From Paracoccus fontiphilus (GTDB lineage Bacteria > Pseudomonadota > Alphaproteobacteria > Rhodobacterales > Rhodobacteraceae), in contig NZ_JAFNAW010000008.1 in the NCBI RefSeq assembly GCF_017356265.1, forward strand, positions 1 to 64,000: 64,000 nucleotides of DNA. The letters are read 5' to 3'. The translations under genes were made by a program, and so were the position numbers. The notes beneath the pieces are model-generated. The model was given only the letters and a program-made list of their open reading frames with translations, made no database searches and was not told the DNA's origin. Shown here in pieces: positions 17,880 through 59,189 of the stretch (positions are counted from its first letter, which is position 1; each line of letters starts with the position of its first letter).

Positions 17880-20000
17880 ATGGCCACGCTGCAAGAGAAT
17901 TTAAGAAATCGTATTCGTAAGCTACCCAAGCCAGGAAATGCAGCGCAAGCGCTGAAGCCATTTTTTGAGGCTGTCAGTAATGCATTCATGGCGATTGATG
18001 ATCAAGCAGAAGCGCTTGGCACCTCTTATGAGGGTCGGGTCAGTATCGTTGTGCAGGGGCTGGGAACCGAGCAGCTTTCAATGATCGTGCGCGACAATGG
18101 GATTGGACTCGATCAACAAAGATTTAAAGCATTTTGCACTGTAGATACTGATTATAAAGAGAAAAAGGGCGGAAAGGGTGTGGGTCGCCTTTTCTGGCTT
18201 GATGCGTTTTCACACGTGGAAGTGGAAAGTCGTTTTCTTGAGGGCGATGTAATTTCCACTCGGGCATTTAAGTTCGAGCTGAAGGACCAGGATCAAATTA
18301 CAGATATTGATCCTGTAGAAAGCTGGCCCCAGAATGAGACGGGAACCGTCGTCAGGTTACACGGCGTTAGCTTTGGGCCTTATAAGGATAATTATCCGCC
18401 AAAGGCTCGTGTATTGCAGGGGCATTTCGTTTCAGAGTTTATTGCAAACTTTTTGAGCGGGGCGGGCACGCATATTAATCTAACTTGTAAGGGCAAGCAC
18501 GGGGTCGAGCTTGACGTCGAATATCCTTCGGAAATTCAAAAACTGGTAATGAAGGGTCCTGTAACGCTTCCTACCTTGGATTGGGATGGCAAAGCACGCG
18601 TGAATGTTATTGGATATCTTTGTGATAAGCAGACAAGTCGGGGACTGCCGGGTAAGCACCATGTGCATTTATTGGGAAATGGGCGCACTGTAGAAACCAG
18701 AAAAATTGATGACTTGCTTGGAATCACATCTCTGTCAGATAATGGTAACGATAATCTGTCGATGCATTTGGTTGTGTCGAGTGATTATCTAGACCAACGC
18801 ACGTCAGAGAGCCGCACGGCATTTACTATGCCTGAGACAGACATTGCTGCGCTGGTAAAACTCATCGTTGAAATGGCGCGTAAGGACTTTATTGCAGAAC
18901 AGGTCAAAGCTTTCGATGCTAAGCGCCGAGCTTCGTTTGATAAGTTTTTGGAGGAACAGCCAATCTTTGGCTATGGGAAAGCCAGTGAGATTTTCGCGTC
19001 GCTTCCCACTAGTGCTACCAGTGCGGAAAGCTTTGCAAGTGCGCTCGCGATACCACGCATGCGTGCTGAAAGAAAAAGAGAGGAGCGCTTACAGCATTTG
19101 GTTAACGCTGTTGTTACTGGCGACAAGTTACCGGTGGACTTTCCTGATGCGATCCGTTCGGCAGCGGCTGGCATTCATGAGAATGAGCGTAGCGCTTTGG
19201 CGCACCATGCCGCTCGGAGAAGAGTAGTCCTTGATCTTTTGGATGTTCTGATCCGTCGCGTCAGAGAGCGTGATGGTAAGGAAGATGTTTACCATCTGGA
19301 GAAAACATTACACTCTCTCCTCGCTCCAATGCAGTATTCGGGGGCAGGCCATACTGAGAATGAGCCGTCGTCACATGATTTGTGGATTCTTGATGAGCGA
19401 CTAGCATTTACGGCTGGCTTTACATCGGATGTGTCGTTGCGAACCTTTGTAAAGGACAATACGCAAGATGATCGTCCTGACTTGGTTCTGTGGGATACCC
19501 TTTTTGGCCTTGGTTCTGTGAGCAGTCAGAATGGCGATGAACTGGTCGATGATGTCGAACTGCAGTCTAAGGTTTTCATCGTGGAACTTAAGCACCCTGG
19601 TAGGAAGAGCTATGGACCAGAAGAAAACGTTCAGTTGCAGGTCCAGAAATATGTAAAAGCTATTCGGGGCGGACAGATTGAAGGGGTTGGCCGTAGACCT
19701 ATTAAGGTTTCAAGTGACTGCCGTTTCCATTGCACGATAGTTGCTGACTTTGTGGGTGGCTTTGAGACGCAAATTGCTTCATGGGATTATATCCACAATA
19801 GAGCTGCTAGGCAACTTACGTTGAAAGGCGACTTCGAGGGCGTAACAATTGATGCTTTGCCGTGGGACTACGTGCTGAGGACAGCACGTGAAAATAATCG
19901 TGCCCTCTTGGATGCTGCCGGCATGAAACGACATGGTCAAACGGTGTTTCAGGTGGAGCCAAGCGACGCGGAGGATAAGTCTCACGTAGCAGCTGAGTGA
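17880..20000 (+). CDS. GHKL ATPase with C-terminal PD-(D/E)XK-like nuclease domain
   Basis: A 706-residue protein. The N-terminus is a Hsp90/MutL/MORC-type ATPase: N-box FFEAVSNAFMAIDDQ near residue 30, G1 box VRDNGIGLD near 70, and G2 box KGGKGVGRLFWLDAF near 97. The C-terminus has a restriction-like core: RPDLVLWDTLFG near 530, FIVELKHPGRKSYG near 563, then QLQVQKYVKAIRGGQ. The gene is visibly more AT-rich than its neighbours. This architecture is what is seen in phage-defence ATPase-nucleases, but I cannot name a characterised family. The ATG at 17880 with AGAGG upstream is preferred over 17829. Confidence 0.72.
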   Translation: MATLQENLRNRIRKLPKPGNAAQALKPFFEAVSNAFMAIDDQAEALGTSYEGRVSIVVQGLGTEQLSMIVRDNGIGLDQQRFKAFCTVDTDYKEKKGGKGVGRLFWLDAFSHVEVESRFLEGDVISTRAFKFELKDQDQITDIDPVESWPQNETGTVVRLHGVSFGPYKDNYPPKARVLQGHFVSEFIANFLSGAGTHINLTCKGKHGVELDVEYPSEIQKLVMKGPVTLPTLDWDGKARVNVIGYLCDKQTSRGLPGKHHVHLLGNGRTVETRKIDDLLGITSLSDNGNDNLSMHLVVSSDYLDQRTSESRTAFTMPETDIAALVKLIVEMARKDFIAEQVKAFDAKRRASFDKFLEEQPIFGYGKASEIFASLPTSATSAESFASALAIPRMRAERKREERLQHLVNAVVTGDKLPVDFPDAIRSAAAGIHENERSALAHHAARRRVVLDLLDVLIRRVRERDGKEDVYHLEKTLHSLLAPMQYSGAGHTENEPSSHDLWILDERLAFTAGFTSDVSLRTFVKDNTQDDRPDLVLWDTLFGLGSVSSQNGDELVDDVELQSKVFIVELKHPGRKSYGPEENVQLQVQKYVKAIRGGQIEGVGRRPIKVSSDCRFHCTIVADFVGGFETQIASWDYIHNRAARQLTLKGDFEGVTIDALPWDYVLRTARENNRALLDAAGMKRHGQTVFQVEPSDAEDKSHVAAE

Positions 20001-20260
20001 TGCAAGTTTTAATGCTGTCAAACCTACTAGGGAATGCACCGGCCCACAGCATGTGCAAGACCTGCTCCGGTTCATTTTGTCGGAGGCTAGTGGATATTTC
20101 CAATGTATAGCGAGAAGGTACAGAGACCAAAGTGAATTGTGAACGCTACTATGACGACCAAACTTATATCAGAAGTATTTTGGTATTTTTCAGGCTAGCC
20201 ACGCGCCCGGATGCCTTGGGATTTTCGCTCTGATACCCCCTCCACGAAGAAGGACGTATA

Positions 20261-21604
20261 GTGATGGTGGCGGCTGGTGGCTACATTTTGCGGGTACCCA
20301 AGCAGAGGAGAGAGCTGCTTCTCAACGAAGCCGAACACGGCGGTTCCTTCTATTCGCCGAAACCCTTTGTCTCGGAACCTGTTTCCCGATTCGACCACAG
20401 CCGAAGCGCGCCGCTTGCCGTCTTCGCGTCCTTCGAAGATGGCTTCATCACCCACATCGCCGGCGGACGAAAAGGACAGTCAGCGGGCACAGGCCTCGTT
20501 CGTCTGAATCTCGAAGAACTTCAACCGCTGGGGCGGCCCGTAAGCTTCGATGAGATCCTTGCTGGTATCGACATACGCGTTGCCCGGCACGTCAGGCAGC
20601 GCTTGGAAACAGGCGGCCTGCTCCCGCCGAAGTCGCTCGGCGCATTTGTTGATCGTATCACGCAACTCGATGAGACCGTCAGCCCACGCCTTGCGCGCTA
20701 TTCCAAGCGTCGCGCCGATGCGCTGCGGCGGCTCGAGCCCCGTGCCCGCGAAAACCTTGCCTACCAGAAGGAAACGCTCGGCCTCGCACTAGAGATTGCT
20801 GGCATGTCGCGAGACGACCTTTTGGCGTGGACCCCGACGGACGCCTCACAGCAATCCTTCCTTGATGGACTGCCGGGGGCACAAGTTCGGGAAGACGCTA
20901 TGCTTTTGTCCGACTTCTCGACCGTGCCGGGCTTTGAATCTATGGGCGAGACCACCCACTACGGCTCGAAGGTGTTCGCGAGCGAAGAGGATTCGTCAAA
21001 GCGGTTGACGGTGATCATGGCCAACCGTCTGCCCCTCGAACAACAGACCGGCGCCGACCTCATCTACTTCAACGAAGCTTACCGCAGCTTCGTGATGGTC
21101 CAATACAAGGCGATGGAGATGCGCGAACACGAGGTGGAATTTCGTTGGCAGGCCAAGGATCAGTTCTGCGAGGAAGTTGAGCGGATGGAGACCCTGCTGG
21201 ACGCGATCAGGAAGCTCCCGAGCGGCGAACATCCTGACGGGTTCCGTTTCTCGGACAACCCGTTCTTCCTGAAATTCTGTCCACGCGTTGTCTTCAACCC
21301 CGACGACAAAGGACTCTTCAAGGGCATCTATCTGCCCCTCGATTTATGGAAGCGGGCGGATGCCGCTGGTCTATTCTCTGGGCCGCGCGGCGGCAAGGTT
21401 CTGACCTTCAAGAACGTCGGTCGTCGGATCAACAATTCGGAGTTTGTCGGGCTCGTGGCCGGATCGTGGGTAGGCACGTCGATAGAGCAATCCACTGTAC
21501 TCAGCGAGATTGTCCGGCAGGTGCTGGAAACCGGGAAGACCGTCACGATCGCCATCAAGCACACCCCGCCTCCTCGTGCGTCCGAAATGGAGGCCGCTGA
21601 ATGA
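20261..21604 (+). CDS. Unknown protein with a nuclease-like motif, coupled to TIGR04141 gene
   Basis: A 447-residue cytoplasmic protein without a family I recognise. The middle is helical (residues 150-190). A strand-rich segment ADLIYFNEAYRSFVMVQYKA near residues 265-285 has an acidic residue followed by Q-x-K, the shape of a PD-(D/E)XK core, so DNA cutting is possible. The start is GTG 20261 or ATG 20264, both served by AAGGA. The stop overlaps the next ATG (ATGA at 21601-21604), so the two products very probably work together. Confidence 0.7.
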   Translation: MMVAAGGYILRVPKQRRELLLNEAEHGGSFYSPKPFVSEPVSRFDHSRSAPLAVFASFEDGFITHIAGGRKGQSAGTGLVRLNLEELQPLGRPVSFDEILAGIDIRVARHVRQRLETGGLLPPKSLGAFVDRITQLDETVSPRLARYSKRRADALRRLEPRARENLAYQKETLGLALEIAGMSRDDLLAWTPTDASQQSFLDGLPGAQVREDAMLLSDFSTVPGFESMGETTHYGSKVFASEEDSSKRLTVIMANRLPLEQQTGADLIYFNEAYRSFVMVQYKAMEMREHEVEFRWQAKDQFCEEVERMETLLDAIRKLPSGEHPDGFRFSDNPFFLKFCPRVVFNPDDKGLFKGIYLPLDLWKRADAAGLFSGPRGGKVLTFKNVGRRINNSEFVGLVAGSWVGTSIEQSTVLSEIVRQVLETGKTVTIAIKHTPPPRASEMEAAE

Positions 21605-23256
21605 GCAATACCCAGAAGCTTTCCATCCGCCTCTTGCGAGATGGCCTCGCCCCCGCTGACGCAGTTCGCGACGGTGTAGACCTAACACCATGGGACAAGC
21701 TGGAAGGCGCTCTCATTTCATTGGCAACGCTCGGCGGCGGCGCGCCGAAATGGGCGCGGTTCCTCGAACTGTCGGAAGACGAGAAGAAGAACGTCTTCAA
21801 CCACACAGCCTTCGGACTCGTGTTCGTTCAGGAGTCAGGACGCTGGTTCGCCGTGTCTTTTGGCATGGGTCACGTCAAGCTCGATCCTGCGGCGTTCGAG
21901 CAAGATTTTGGGCTGCGCGTCGTCCTCAATGCTGTTGACCCGAAGCAGTTGAAAAGTGCGGATGTTCGGACGCCCGATGAGAATACCATGTCACGCCGTA
22001 CGCAGACCAGCCGGGGCTCCGATCAGACTGCCTTCGCCATCGACATCGAACGCGACCTCGTCCGTGGATTGGCAGGGACACCCAAAGATGAAGCGTTCGG
22101 TTCCTATGTGGCAGGGACCGACGGCCTGACGCTCAACCGAAAGCTTGAGATTGCGGAACTCGCCCAGGCCTGTGCGGACACGTATGCAATCTACCAGAAG
22201 ACCAACTACAAGGCCGACTTCGGCTGGATCGATCAGATTCGACACATCCGTGAGGAAGAGTTGATCGACAAGCTGGACGCCAAGCTGGTCGAAGCTTTGG
22301 CGAAGGCGGTTGACGAAGGCGAGACAGACGGTATTCACCTCGCGTTTCCGGTCATTTACGACCCTGAGAAATCAAGCCTCATCCGCTACAAGGGTTTTCG
22401 TAGCTGGCAGCTCTATGCCGACCTCGACTTGCCCGGTTACCTCGACGCATTGAAGGAGCGCGAGAAAGCCGGCTACTCGGACGAGGACCTCCGCAATCAC
22501 ACCGTCCACGAAGTCGATGATGATGGTCACGACTGTGGTGGGAAGTGGAAGTTGCGGGAATGCATAGTGTTCGAAACAGAACTCGATGGCTCGACCTACG
22601 TCTTCTCTGGAGGCCGCTGGTATCAGATTGACCAGGACCTCGCCAAAGCTGTACAGGAGTTTTTCGACGCGACAAGCAAGGTCGAGATGCCTGCCGCTGA
22701 GGCTGATGAGACAGAAGAGACTTACAACAAGCGCGTTGCCGGTCTTGATGCGGACATGGTCTGCCTAGATCGTCGGCTCATCAAGCCTACAGGTGCTGCA
22801 AGCAAGATCGAAGCCTGCGACTTTCTCGGCCGTGAGCGTCAACTGATCCACGTTAAGGACAAGACGTCCTCCTCTCGACTCAGTCACCTTTTCAACCAGG
22901 GAACGGTCTCCGCGCGTGTTCTTGCCACCGACCCGCCGTCACGCGACAGCGTTCGGAACGAAGTGATCGCGGTCCAGGCTGAAACCGGACAGACTGGTTA
23001 CGATGACATCATCCCAAATTCCGGGGCTGACTTCACCCGTGGCGATTTCACCGTCGTCTACAGCGTCATTGTTGCATCGGATAAGCCGAAACTTCCCTTC
23101 TTCAGCTTGGTTTCGTTCCGCCAGGCCGCGCGCGAATTGCATGCTCTCGGCTACAAATGGGCTTTCGCTTGGATCGAGAAGCCAAGGTCTGGCGCGAAGG
23201 CGAGAGCTAAACGATCTGCGAAGGGTGCTGGAGATGTTGCGGAGGTCATTGAATGA
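21601..23256 (+). CDS. TIGR04141/DUF6119 family sporadically distributed protein
   Basis: A 551-residue protein matching the pattern I know for TIGR04141 (DUF6119): N-terminal LSIRLLRDGLAPADAV, the block RWFAVSFGMGHVKLDP then FGLRVVLNAVDPKQL, TAFAIDIERDLVRGLAG, and the late block LIHVKDKTSSSRLSHLFNQG. Members are patchily spread in bacterial accessory regions and have no established activity; defence has been suspected because of genomic context. It is translationally coupled to the preceding gene. The C-terminal 25 residues are Lys/Arg/Ala-rich. Confidence 0.8.
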   Translation: MSNTQKLSIRLLRDGLAPADAVRDGVDLTPWDKLEGALISLATLGGGAPKWARFLELSEDEKKNVFNHTAFGLVFVQESGRWFAVSFGMGHVKLDPAAFEQDFGLRVVLNAVDPKQLKSADVRTPDENTMSRRTQTSRGSDQTAFAIDIERDLVRGLAGTPKDEAFGSYVAGTDGLTLNRKLEIAELAQACADTYAIYQKTNYKADFGWIDQIRHIREEELIDKLDAKLVEALAKAVDEGETDGIHLAFPVIYDPEKSSLIRYKGFRSWQLYADLDLPGYLDALKEREKAGYSDEDLRNHTVHEVDDDGHDCGGKWKLRECIVFETELDGSTYVFSGGRWYQIDQDLAKAVQEFFDATSKVEMPAAEADETEETYNKRVAGLDADMVCLDRRLIKPTGAASKIEACDFLGRERQLIHVKDKTSSSRLSHLFNQGTVSARVLATDPPSRDSVRNEVIAVQAETGQTGYDDIIPNSGADFTRGDFTVVYSVIVASDKPKLPFFSLVSFRQAARELHALGYKWAFAWIEKPRSGAKARAKRSAKGAGDVAEVIE

Positions 23257-23616
23257 GCGAAAGACGTAATTGCACGACCCCAACGCAGGAGGGGAGCAAT
23301 CTCAGACCCTCAGACGGCGCCCACGCGCAACTATTTTCAATGACTTTCGTTCAAATGGCAGTTTTCCGGCGCACTACTGTCATTCGTGATAATCGCGGCG
23401 AACGTCCACGTTCCGCCCCGTGATGGACAGAAGGGAGCGACCTGTGCTGCAGGGTGCATGAATGACTGCTATCCCAAGTCCGCCGCGGGCGCCAAGCTGC
23501 ACTGCCGTAAGTCAGCTTTCCGCCCATAACGCCATCTGAGGTTCACTCGTTGCGATTTGTGTCTGCCGGTCAGGTATGCTGGACTGTGGTCCTGGGACAG
23601 TCCCCGTCAACTCGCG
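23257..23616. other. Non-coding right flank of the island
   Basis: No gene is supported. A perfect hairpin, GGACTGT/ACAGTCC (23581-23587 and 23597-23603), lies 13 bases beyond the nadC stop and could slow or end nadBC transcription, though no T-run follows it. Confidence 0.45.
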
Positions 23617-26002: not shown

Positions 26003-27094
26003 TCAGGCCGCCAGCCACCGGGACAGGTCGATCATCCGCTGCACGGCCCGCCGGGCCGGGGCGGCGATGTCCGGCTCCACCTCGACCTGGCCGGTCATGG
26101 AATGCAGCGACCACAAGACCTTTTGCAGCGTGATCTTCTTCATGTGCGGGCACATGTTGCACGGTCCCAGGAACTCGACCTCGGGGTGTGCGTCGGCGAC
26201 GTTGGATGCCATCGAGCATTCTGTGACCAGCATCGCCTGGCTTGGGCGTTCCTTGCCCACCCAGTCGATGATATGGGCGGTCGATCCTGCAAAGTCGGCC
26301 TCGGCCACCACGTCCGGGGGACATTAGGGATGGGCGATGATCTTCAGCCCTGGATACCAGCCCCGGAAGTCGCGCAGATCCTGGGGCGTGAAGCGTTCGT
26401 GGACGATGCAGGCCCCGTCCCACCAGACGATGCGCTTCTGCGGCACCTGTTTTGCCACGTTCTGCGCCAGCCACTTGTCGGGTGTCATGATCACCGTGTC
26501 GCCCGGCATCGCCGCCACGATTTGCGCCGCGTTCGAGGAGGTTCAGCAGATGTCGGACGCGGCTTTCACGGCGGCCGTGGTGTTGACGTAGCTGACCACC
26601 GACGCGCCGGGATATTCCGCACGCATCCGGGCGATCCCTTCGGCGGTGATGCTTTCGGCCAGCGAACAGCCCGCCTTCATGTCGGGCATCAGGACGGTCT
26701 TGGCGGGGTTCAGGATCTTCGAGGTCTCGGCCATGAAATGCACGCCGCATTGCACGATGATGTCGGCATCCACGCGGGTCGCCTCGACGGCCAGTTGCAG
26801 GCTGTCGCCCACCACGTCGGCGATGCCGTGATAGATGTCGGGCGTCATGTAGTTGTGCGCCAGCACCACCGCGCCGCGTTCCGCCTTGAGCCGGTTGATC
26901 GCCGCCACATAGGGTGCGGCAATCGCCCAGTCGGGAAAAGGCATCACCCGGTCCATGCGCGCATGGATGTCAGCCATGTCGCGGGCCAGCTCGATCGAGG
27001 GCGTCAGGTCGTAATGCGCCGCCAATTCGGCGCGGATGGTCGTCACGTCCAGCAAGCTCGGCTCCTCCGCACGCCGCGTGGCGCGCCCTCGCAT
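26003..27094 (-). pseudogene. nadA: Quinolinate synthase NadA, interrupted by two stop codons
   Basis: A full-length NadA frame of about 363 codons: [70 protein letters not shown]. The three cluster cysteines (codons 143, 229, 315; spacing 86/86 as in the family) are all present. TGA at 26543-26545 (codon 184, before TSSN) and TAA at 26324-26326 (codon 257, at the conserved Glu of HPECP) lie in the same frame, so this copy cannot give whole NadA unless the stops are sequence errors. A TTG at 27055 behind GGAGGA is an alternative start. Confidence 0.92.
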
Positions 27095-57524: not shown

Positions 57525-59189
57525 TTATCGTCCACGCCGAAAGCTTGGATCGATCAAACTGTATACTGCGAGCAGACTGCCGATGCTTAGCATCATGGAA
57601 AAGCCGGTGAATAGATCGATGAGCAGGTAATTGACCACTAGCATTCCCACAACCCCAAACATCAACCCCCAACGCGGAGGAGTCGGACGATGACCATTGC
57701 CCAGTTGCCCTCCATATAAATCGTCAGGAGCATTTTGCGCTTCTGCGTGAACGAAAATCCGGTGAACTCGAGTGGCTCCGTGCAGGAAGACGGTACATGT
57801 CGTCAGCACGACAAGCAGGCTGCTATAAAGCGTCGGTCTACTGTAAGAAAGTCGCTCTATAGCCGCTTGTTGTCCGCTCACGACCGACATCAGGTCGTCC
57901 ACAAGCCAGGCGACGATTGACTCTGATCGCGATAGCATGAACATATTTTGTAACCTCATACAGATAGCGATAAGTATCCCTAAAACGGTACATCGGAATA
58001 TGCCGAGCATCACCTTGGTAGAGGATCCAAGAAGTTCTTCTCGCTTATCGGCAGTTGACAAAAGTTTTGGTACCCGGCCGATCTTCGATAAATCGTGGGC
58101 CAGTGTGAAGAGTAAGATCAAGCCTGCAAAGAAAATAAAGAAGCATACGCCCATATAGAGGTACGCGGCGCTAGTAAAAGCAATAGCTTCCGGTACCGAT
58201 ATGATATCAGGACGGTAAATTGCTATCCGGCCCCAGTCTACCCCGAAGTTGCCGGGATCACCTTTTAGCAATGGAACTAAGCATTCATTGATCCACTGAG
58301 CAGCAGCAGCGACAGGCAAACAGACTACCAAGCATGCCCAGTATGAATATGAGTAGGCCTCAACGCTGTGCCTCCAGCCGAAATCAAGCTGGTCTTCTGT
58401 TTCAAAGGTCAGATTTGCACGGGCATCTTTTTTCCAGCTGGCGATCAACTCGCCCGCGAATACCAGATAAAGCGGAAGGAGTACCAAAAAGAGAACCGTC
58501 CAGTTCGGCGCCCACAAAAAACCCACCTGCTTTGTCGGTGCGCTTGAATGGCCGTAGAAGACGCTATGAATATCGACAACGTAGGAAAAGAAGCCCAGTG
58601 TCACGGCACCGGCAAAGACCGCCGCCGGCACATCCAGCAAGGAATCTCTACTGAAGAGTGCCTCGGACCAGCGTGCCAGACTGAAGCGCCGCAGTGATTC
58701 AGAAGGGGTATCCTTGGGTGATTTCTCTACGTCTTGGAATTTCTCGTACTGGTAAGCCGATTGCTGGGCTGCATTCGTGGTCTCCAACGCATCGTGGCCC
58801 TGTTCGCTGATCTGCTTTCGTCTCTTGGCTGTCAGCCGCGATTGCGCCGCACTTAGTTCTACTTGCCATTCGCTGGTCGCATCCGGATCATCACACCCCA
58901 GTATCCTTGCCAGCCACCGGATGTTGGTTGTGCTGATCCCCTTATTGTTTTTCTGAAACCAGAGCTGGACGGTTCTCAGATCAACGCCGACGCGATTGCC
59001 ATCGATCTGTGAGATCGCTTCGGCGAGAAGCTCGGGCGTCCATGGGCCGGCGGGAAACCCATCTTTGTCCGCCGGCCGACCTGCACCTGCGGCAGCTATT
59101 TGGGCAAAGAGTTCCTTGAAGTCACTCCCGTCCTTCGGGGGTGGCAGAAAAAACTTGCTGTTTTTTCTCAAAGGTTTGGCGGGTTCCAT
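57525..59189 (-). CDS. rcgA: RcgA-like membrane protein with N-terminal HTH
   Basis: A 554-residue protein. Residues about 50-100 look like a DNA-binding domain (TPELLAEAISQIDGNRVGVD, LRTVQLWFQKNNKGISTTNI). From about 185 on there are seven or eight membrane segments, for example VPAAVFAGAVTLGFFSYVVD, WTVLFLVLLPLYLVFAGELI, FFIFFAGLILLFTLAHDLSK and the C-terminal pair. This layout fits the RcgA 'putative transporter' family. A membrane-tethered regulator responding to a signal, possibly the substrate of RcgR, is inferred. It is transcribed with rcgR. Confidence 0.75.
   Translation of the reverse strand: MEPAKPLRKNSKFFLPPPKDGSDFKELFAQIAAAGAGRPADKDGFPAGPWTPELLAEAISQIDGNRVGVDLRTVQLWFQKNNKGISTTNIRWLARILGCDDPDATSEWQVELSAAQSRLTAKRRKQISEQGHDALETTNAAQQSAYQYEKFQDVEKSPKDTPSESLRRFSLARWSEALFSRDSLLDVPAAVFAGAVTLGFFSYVVDIHSVFYGHSSAPTKQVGFLWAPNWTVLFLVLLPLYLVFAGELIASWKKDARANLTFETEDQLDFGWRHSVEAYSYSYWACLVVCLPVAAAAQWINECLVPLLKGDPGNFGVDWGRIAIYRPDIISVPEAIAFTSAAYLYMGVCFFIFFAGLILLFTLAHDLSKIGRVPKLLSTADKREELLGSSTKVMLGIFRCTVLGILIAICMRLQNMFMLSRSESIVAWLVDDLMSVVSGQQAAIERLSYSRPTLYSSLLVVLTTCTVFLHGATRVHRIFVHAEAQNAPDDLYGGQLGNGHRPTPPRWGLMFGVVGMLVVNYLLIDLFTGFSMMLSIGSLLAVYSLIDPSFRRGR

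Follow-up and report, generated by a model that had tools for sequence, protein, structure and literature searches.

A 64,000-nucleotide stretch of Paracoccus fontiphilus DNA (assembly GCF_017356265.1, contig NZ_JAFNAW010000008.1, positions 1 to 64,000), hereafter the window, carries three large intact open frames, all on the plus strand, which had been proposed from the letters alone as a new defence locus and are here called genes 1, 2 and 3 (Table 1). The locus is plasmid-borne. For gene 1 the ATG at 17880 is favoured, in agreement with the start of its relatives, which lend no support to the start of a longer GTG frame from 17829; gene 2 begins at 20264 (ATG) or at 20261 (GTG). Genes 1 and 2 are separated by 263 bases, and genes 2 and 3 are indeed coupled by the ATGA overlap that had been noticed at the outset.

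Table 1. Positions of the genes, motifs and predicted domains in the window.
Feature	Position	Strand	Remarks
Gene 1 (P1, 706 aa)	17880..20000	+	GHKL ATPase domain and C-terminal PD-(D/E)XK nuclease motif; paraMORC3-type, VcSduA architecture
GHKL ATP-binding motifs of gene 1, E30 to R103	17967..18188	+	Conserved among relatives
Nuclease motif of gene 1, D534 ... E569-x-K571 ... Q587xxxY591	19479..19652	+	Kept in 120/120 database entries, own included
Upstream stretch common to free-standing copies	20187..20263	+	BLAST limits: 20048 onward for L002, 20187 onward for L010 and L011
Gene 2 (P2, 446 aa)	20264..21604	+	EVE/YTH-like N-terminal fold and E-D-QxK nuclease-like C-terminal part; without a named family
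EVE/YTH/ASCH-like (PUA superfamily) domain of gene 2, residues 1-139	20264..20680	+	Predicted model
Nuclease-like motif of gene 2, E259, D265, Q280-Y-K282 (VQYK)	21038..21109	+	Kept in 120/120 database relatives
ATGA shared by the gene 2 stop and the gene 3 start	21601..21604	+	
Gene 3 (P3, 551 aa)	21601..23256	+	DUF6119 / TIGR04141 protein
C-terminal part of gene 3, residues 352-533	22654..23199	+	PD-(D/E)XK-like fold, predicted model
Eleven bases ATGAGCGAAAG across the gene 3 end	23253..23263	+	Resemble the first hsdR codons of nested copies (junction comparison, BLAST limits)

The original prediction had all three genes acting together and allowed that the gap after gene 1 might separate two systems. 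Linkage was judged in loci reaching at most ~9 kb to either side, and the three-gene arrangement did not recur in them: a gene-1-type protein was matched in none of the 33 opened loci that surround DUF6119 or gene 2, 32 of which hold DUF6119, and neither gene 2 nor gene 3 was matched in 42 loci of gene 1 relatives. In the set L001-L070, nearly all of it gene 2 family loci, GHKL matches were confined to L008 and L009, which are gene 1 relatives fetched as such, and to L055, where a different GHKL protein was weakly matched (65.9 bits). Base composition points the same way. The GC content of gene 1 is 0.47-0.50 over most of the gene, with a third-position value of 0.46, whereas genes 2 and 3 lie at 0.57-0.58, with third-position values of 0.71 and 0.66, respectively, and the near flanks range from 0.59 to 0.74; the foreign look ascribed to the whole block is thus mainly that of gene 1, in a block of uneven composition. 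Given their separate neighbourhoods, gene 1 and genes 2-3 are probably two separate, adjacent units, of which genes 2-3 are the less known and the more interesting.

Close relatives of genes 2-3 were found in two settings. In L012 (Mesorhizobium sediminum), L013 (Stappia indica) and L016 (a Croceicoccus metagenome-assembled genome, MAG) the pair is nested in a type I restriction-modification (R-M) operon, between hsdS and a full-length hsdR: hsdM, a DUF4357 gene and hsdS precede it, and the hsdR behind it overlaps with the gene 3 end. By BLASTN these nested copies are 92-93% identical to the window from the gene 2 start codon (or 4 or 19 bases earlier) to base 23263, seven bases beyond the gene 3 stop, and their hsdR genes are 100, 98 and 96% identical, respectively, over residues 1-1077 of the L012 HsdR (tblastn). 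In L014 the limits are of the nested type and the bases past gene 3 resemble an hsdR start, yet no hsdR match remains. The free-standing copies L002 (plasmid pAMI8 of Paracoccus aminophilus), L010 and L011 match the window further out on both sides, from 20048 to 23525 for L002 and from 20187 to 23418 or 23407 for L010 and L011. No hsdR was matched in the DNA around these three copies or in the window, and neither HsdR nor HsdM on the window's contig (C164). Immediately upstream of the L002 copy, AAA and protease genes match IetA and IetS. Several relatives are plasmid-borne.

The upstream stretch common to the free-standing copies is not shared with the nested ones, apart from at most 19 bases (L016), and presumably serves as the cassette's own promoter region. 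At the other end, ATGAGCGAAAG resembles ATGACCGAAAG, the first hsdR codons of the nested copies, with no further hsdR similarity in the window beyond it, and is probably a scar left when the cassette was nested earlier. Most simply, the free-standing form would have come out of an R-M operon. Six pairwise comparisons put dN/dS at 0.11-0.22 (gene 2) and 0.07-0.10 (gene 3), so that both genes are under purifying selection and maintained as proteins. A DUF6119 gene directly downstream of gene 2 was seen in six of 61 gene 2 family loci, all six being among the seven loci with at least 83% identity. In an Acidiphilium MAG (L019:253-3657) a distant DUF6119 gene adjoins a gene 2 relative in divergent orientation, perhaps a second, independent association of the two families.

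The 61 loci came from a scan of an 84,980-species genome collection. Genes in them were called crudely, as longest frames, with hsdR checked by tblastn, and neighbours were typed by Pfam scans of representatives, by clustering and by sequence queries. In 20 loci a gene on the same strand, 100 aa or longer, ends no more than 30 bases upstream of gene 2 or overlaps it (the neighbour in L038 being a fragment of a gene 2 copy that is itself split), and in 16 such a gene starts within 30 bases downstream or overlaps. Homologues had been expected to lie near defence genes, and gene 2 relatives do: they stand in type I R-M operons in at least six loci (L012, L013, L016, L017, L045, L065), in BREX-type loci with BrxC-like and PglX-like genes in six (L023, L024, L025, L026, L028, L031), four of which also hold SIR2 and HerA, and immediately ahead of a GajA-like gene in four that also contain a GajB-like gene (L034, L037, L040, L050). 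PADLOC named the scanned neighbours as BrxC, SIR2, HerA, PglX, GajA, GajB, PDC-S06/PrrC-like and a type IIG enzyme. Many other gene 2 loci are unannotated or lack a known system, and the neighbour in L062 is metabolic. Auxiliary nucleases are reported from BREX operons (PMC12839542). Gene 2 relatives occurred in three and DUF6119 in 14 of 390 genomes of the order, the window's own included; viral contigs gave one locus with a gene 2 relative and three with DUF6119, and L048 places a gene 2 relative on a complete chromosome. Two members of the gene 2 family lie near one another on the same strand of one contig in L049:6566-10314.

A plasmid search with the L012 HsdR gave 433 matching records; the best 16 were taken and 14 distinct operons opened, leaving one near duplicate, one unannotated record and the more distant Klebsiella and other records unopened. 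The hsdS-hsdR gap holds at least one gene in all 14. Named as annotated in the records, the cargo is Shedu with HAD (L214, L219), Shedu with DUF3800 (L216), HAD (L215), DUF3800, alone or beside a second gene (L213, L218), a kinase together with a small gene (L212, L217), Abi (L221), Fic (L222) or DUF6119 (L122, L123, L124, L220), so that Shedu occupies three and DUF6119 four of the opened gaps. The gap looks like a variable effector slot. A SprT-like gene comes after the type I R-M operons of L212-L222. In the window's own genome a different contig (C109; L227:1769-9952) carries a type I R-M operon whose slot holds two small genes (252 and 244 aa); neither is a relative of gene 2 or 3, and the second has a beginning like that of a DUF3800 protein (FLDESGD).

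Effector genes within a type I R-M locus are known. PrrC of EcoprrI is embedded in such an operon (PMC3874165, PMC12707154) and DarTG2 is stated to lie between hsdS and hsdR (both effectors: PMC3874165, PMC12707154, PMC12255303). The nested relatives of the cassette in L012, L013 and L016 are like PrrC and DarTG2 in this embedding, which the window copy does not share. Unlike PrrC and DarTG2, to which its proteins are unrelated, the cassette also stands free, and the gene 2 family appears in other defence loci; no AAA_13 (PrrC) domain was matched in gene 2 or 3. The idea of a slot is therefore already in the literature; added here are the breadth of its cargo in this operon family and the fact that genes 2 and 3 can occupy it, neither of which turned up in the literature searched. 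A 2024 preprint by Payne and others on embedded defences may, however, already include the family.

The product of gene 2 had no Pfam match over cut-off and no NCBIfam or PADLOC match. In 54 relatives, Pfam gave only weak matches in one or two members each (among them YhcG_C, E 0.078, and HSDR_N_2, E 0.3), and JetB, matched by PADLOC in two of the 54 with a best E of 0.0027, was judged chance. At the level of the fold, the predicted model of the N-terminal domain resembles the EVE/PUA-superfamily reader domains of type IV EVE-nucleases, and the domain is possibly a reader of modified bases. The EVE-HNH endonuclease VcaM4I and predicted EVE-PD(D/E)XK type IV enzymes have been described (PMC7897488, PMC7641849). 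Unlike in VcaM4I, the nuclease motif of gene 2 is E-D-QxK and not HNH; unlike in the EVE enzymes, the canonical pocket residues were not located, and no EVE model in Pfam was matched by sequence. The E-D-QxK motif, its QxK being that of the VQYK pointed out earlier, is invariant in 120 of 120 database relatives, chosen without regard to the motif; in the 61 loci, found with patterns that include VQYK, its conservation is not independent. E259, D265 and QxK282 fit the predicted secondary structure (helix 256-262, strand 266-270, strand 275-287), and at motif level suggest a nuclease.

Gene 3 had been assigned to TIGR04141/DUF6119, and both models were matched far over their cut-offs, DUF6119 (PF19614) with 512.7 bits (E 1.4e-153; cut-off 27) and TIGR04141 with 439.9 bits (E 1.1e-131; cut-off 35), making it a full-length member by both. 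The best matches of its C-terminal model are nucleases (HamA, EndoMS), and E372, D390, E404, D407, K419 and Q433 are conserved there. Unlike HamA of Hachiman, gene 3 carries a histidine where ExK has the acidic residue; it has no HamA match in Pfam (E <= 1) or PADLOC, and inspection of the window showed no HamB-like helicase beside it. Neither the nuclease-like part of gene 2 nor that of gene 3 gave a significant match to gene 1 or to Shedu in profile comparison. No paper on the function of DUF6119 / TIGR04141 was found in the literature searched; the nuclease-like C-terminal fold and the hsdS-hsdR position of this family are observations of the present analysis. In a Pseudomonas aeruginosa prophage (L130:5297-7006) a DUF6119 gene lies, cargo-like, between two integrase genes.

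The motifs from which gene 1 had been read as a GHKL ATPase joined to a PD-(D/E)XK-like end are all present and conserved in its relatives: E30 and N34 (EAVSNA), D72/G74/G76 (DNGIGL) and G98-R103 (KGGKGVGR) at the N-terminus, and D534 (PDLVLWD), E569-x-K571 (IVELK) and, in addition, Q587xxxY591 at the C-terminus. In the best 120 database entries, one of which (P0121) is the window's own sequence, D534, E569, K571, Q587 and Y591 are kept throughout, and E30, N34, D72, G74, G76, G98, G100, G102 and R103 in 115 or 117, the rest being gapped there. The match to HATPase_c (E 2.9e-5, 24.9 bits) is just below the Pfam cut-off of 26.4. This is the arrangement of paraMORC3, described in 2008 to include stand-alone members with a C-terminal endonuclease domain (Iyer 2008, PMC2292703), the GHKL motifs being present and the C-terminal E-D-ExK motif agreeing at the level of the motif. 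It is likewise that of VcSduA, a GHKL-Shedu of Vibrio cholerae which, according to PMC12137116, was shown in 2025 to block phage as a single gene and lost defence when the GHKL glutamate E27 or the nuclease lysine K557 was changed. E30 and K571 of gene 1 lie in the motifs of these two residues and, judged from the motifs, may correspond to them; a Vibrio fluvialis relative, ~25% identical to gene 1, has a glutamate at 27 and the ExK lysine at 556, near the published positions.

The Shedu nuclease model PF14082 matched neither gene 1 (E <= 1) nor the window's own genome (E <= 0.001), and pairwise profile comparison of gene 1 with seven Shedu proteins was weak (E 3.7e-4, 36.5% probability). As PF14082 is unmatched, membership of Shedu proper (DUF4263 / SduA_C) was set aside and gene 1 is likened to VcSduA without being classed as Shedu; by analogy in its N-terminal GHKL ATPase, C-terminal ExK nuclease, single-gene form and sporadic spread, it may work like VcSduA. 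Its claim to be a new system falls with the 2008 description of the architecture and the 2025 report of phage blocking. Relatives of gene 1 were found in 50 plasmid records and, as 40 loci, in viral contigs. A class-wide profile search (30 of 240 genomes) caught mostly short generic HATPase stretches, and the only real-looking relatives there were the own copy (L082), L083, a partial L084 and perhaps L085. Searches of PDB sequences with genes 1-3 and profiles A1 and A2 gave no relative judged relevant: histidine kinases (A2, E 0.014 and 0.097) fit the GHKL domain and add nothing, and AhlC-type chains (A1, E 0.004-0.008) were taken as chance. Residues 20-45 of gene 1 (17937-18014) match the ptaRNA1 toxin model PF12703 at 27.2 bits against a cut-off of 27, which suggests that this model may overlap the start of GHKL proteins.

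Outside the three genes, the left flank holds a ParE-like toxin, RepB and ParA, and the right flank NadA. Of the toxin-antitoxin pair and nadCBA said to border the block, the toxin and NadA were thus recovered, and the putative antitoxin frame has no Pfam match. The nadA gene lies in two minus-strand frames within 26006-27094, the N-terminal part at 26546-27094 and the C-terminal part at 26006-26311, and is either a broken gene or an assembly error. A 554-aa frame at 57525-59189, without Pfam match at E <= 1e-4, lies in a stretch of lower GC (0.52-0.56).

Parts of the locus thus resemble known ones. As a whole it is best explained, in our view with fair though not high probability, as two separate immune units on a plasmid, gene 1 alone and the cassette of genes 2-3. 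Gene 1 would be a paraMORC3-type GHKL ATPase that senses or clamps invading DNA and drives its own C-terminal nuclease, as proposed for VcSduA. Genes 2-3 would form a mobile effector cassette, once in the hsdS-hsdR slot of a type I restriction operon and now on its own, in which gene 2 would read a feature of the DNA, possibly a modified base, through its EVE/YTH-like domain and cut with its QxK nuclease domain, and gene 3 would supply a second, divergent PD-(D/E)XK nuclease. The two might act together as a back-up where ordinary restriction fails, for example against phages with modified DNA. Genes 2 and 3 are most likely swappable nuclease effectors, gene 2 perhaps a modification-dependent one, and the context of the locus throughout suggests that it probably serves in phage defence. 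More tentatively, and rather doubtfully, the cassette may be a new modification-sensing one with two nucleases, the hsdS-hsdR gap a general swappable slot that loads, exchanges and releases cassettes, and gene 2 a widespread back-up nuclease in type I R-M, BREX and Gabija loci.

Several observations weigh against this explanation. The folds looked for did appear in the models, EVE/YTH-like at the N-terminus of gene 2 and nuclease-like at the C-terminus of gene 3, but Foldseek returned nothing at E <= 0.001 for either model, nor for gene 2 on viral models (best 0.003). The list for gene 2 was filled by its N-terminal domain, and its nuclease-like part had no significant profile match to those of gene 3 or gene 1. 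Tryptophan is absent from the EVE-like domain of the window protein, and aromatic residues of this domain are conserved no more than moderately in the 54 relatives; in gene 3 histidine replaces the acidic residue of (D/E)xK; and the slot was opened in only 14 of the 433 matching R-M records. Finally, the expected co-occurrence of genes 2 and 3, which holds in six of the seven close loci, fails in the wider families, 55 of the 61 P2-family loci having no DUF6119 directly downstream and 31 of 32 DUF6119 loci showing no gene 2.

These last counts argue for genes 2 and 3 being no functional pair but independent solo effectors that share the slot and the ATGA overlap by chance, much as Shedu shares the slot with HAD or DUF3800 genes. 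This is a serious possibility, which we would nevertheless place on the less probable side: the pair is kept together with identical limits through nested and free-standing contexts, and the divergent pair in L019 is perhaps a second association. An unlikely, if reasoned, alternative is that genes 2 and 3 guard restriction, as latent toxins held by the type I R-M enzyme and set free by phage inhibition of that enzyme, in the manner of PrrC in EcoprrI. Their relatives lie where embedded effectors such as PrrC and DarTG2 are known, and the window's own genome also has an R-M enzyme, whose operon carries different cargo in the slot. The free-standing copies in the window, L002 and L010, however, are intact and under purifying selection with no hsdR around them, the gene 2 family is also found in BREX-type and Gabija-type loci without a type I subunit recognised by the queries, and the PrrC domain is missing from the matches. 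Plasmid upkeep or a toxin-antitoxin function in place of phage defence, for which the partition genes and ParE-like toxin upstream and the several relatives on plasmids might speak, is improbable in view of the gene 2 relative on a complete chromosome, the DUF6119 gene in a prophage, the repeated nesting within defence operons and, by inspection, the lack of any called small gene next to genes 2 and 3 that resembles an antitoxin. One three-gene system, in which the gene 1 ATPase activates the nucleases of genes 2 and 3, has their shared strand and close adjacency in its favour and was rejected as most improbable on the neighbourhoods, including IetAS in place of gene 1 in L002 and the differing GHKL protein of L055, and on composition.

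If two immune units with a mobile cassette of genes 2-3 is the right explanation, the orphan family DUF6119 and the unnamed gene 2 family would gain a testable role. Since the gap in sister operons holds Shedu, Fic, Abi and kinase genes, unknown genes between hsdS and hsdR would become readable as candidate immune effectors. With 91-93% identity to the window, the nested and free-standing copies would then serve as matched natural pairs for examining the dependence of an embedded effector on the R-M enzyme of its host operon.

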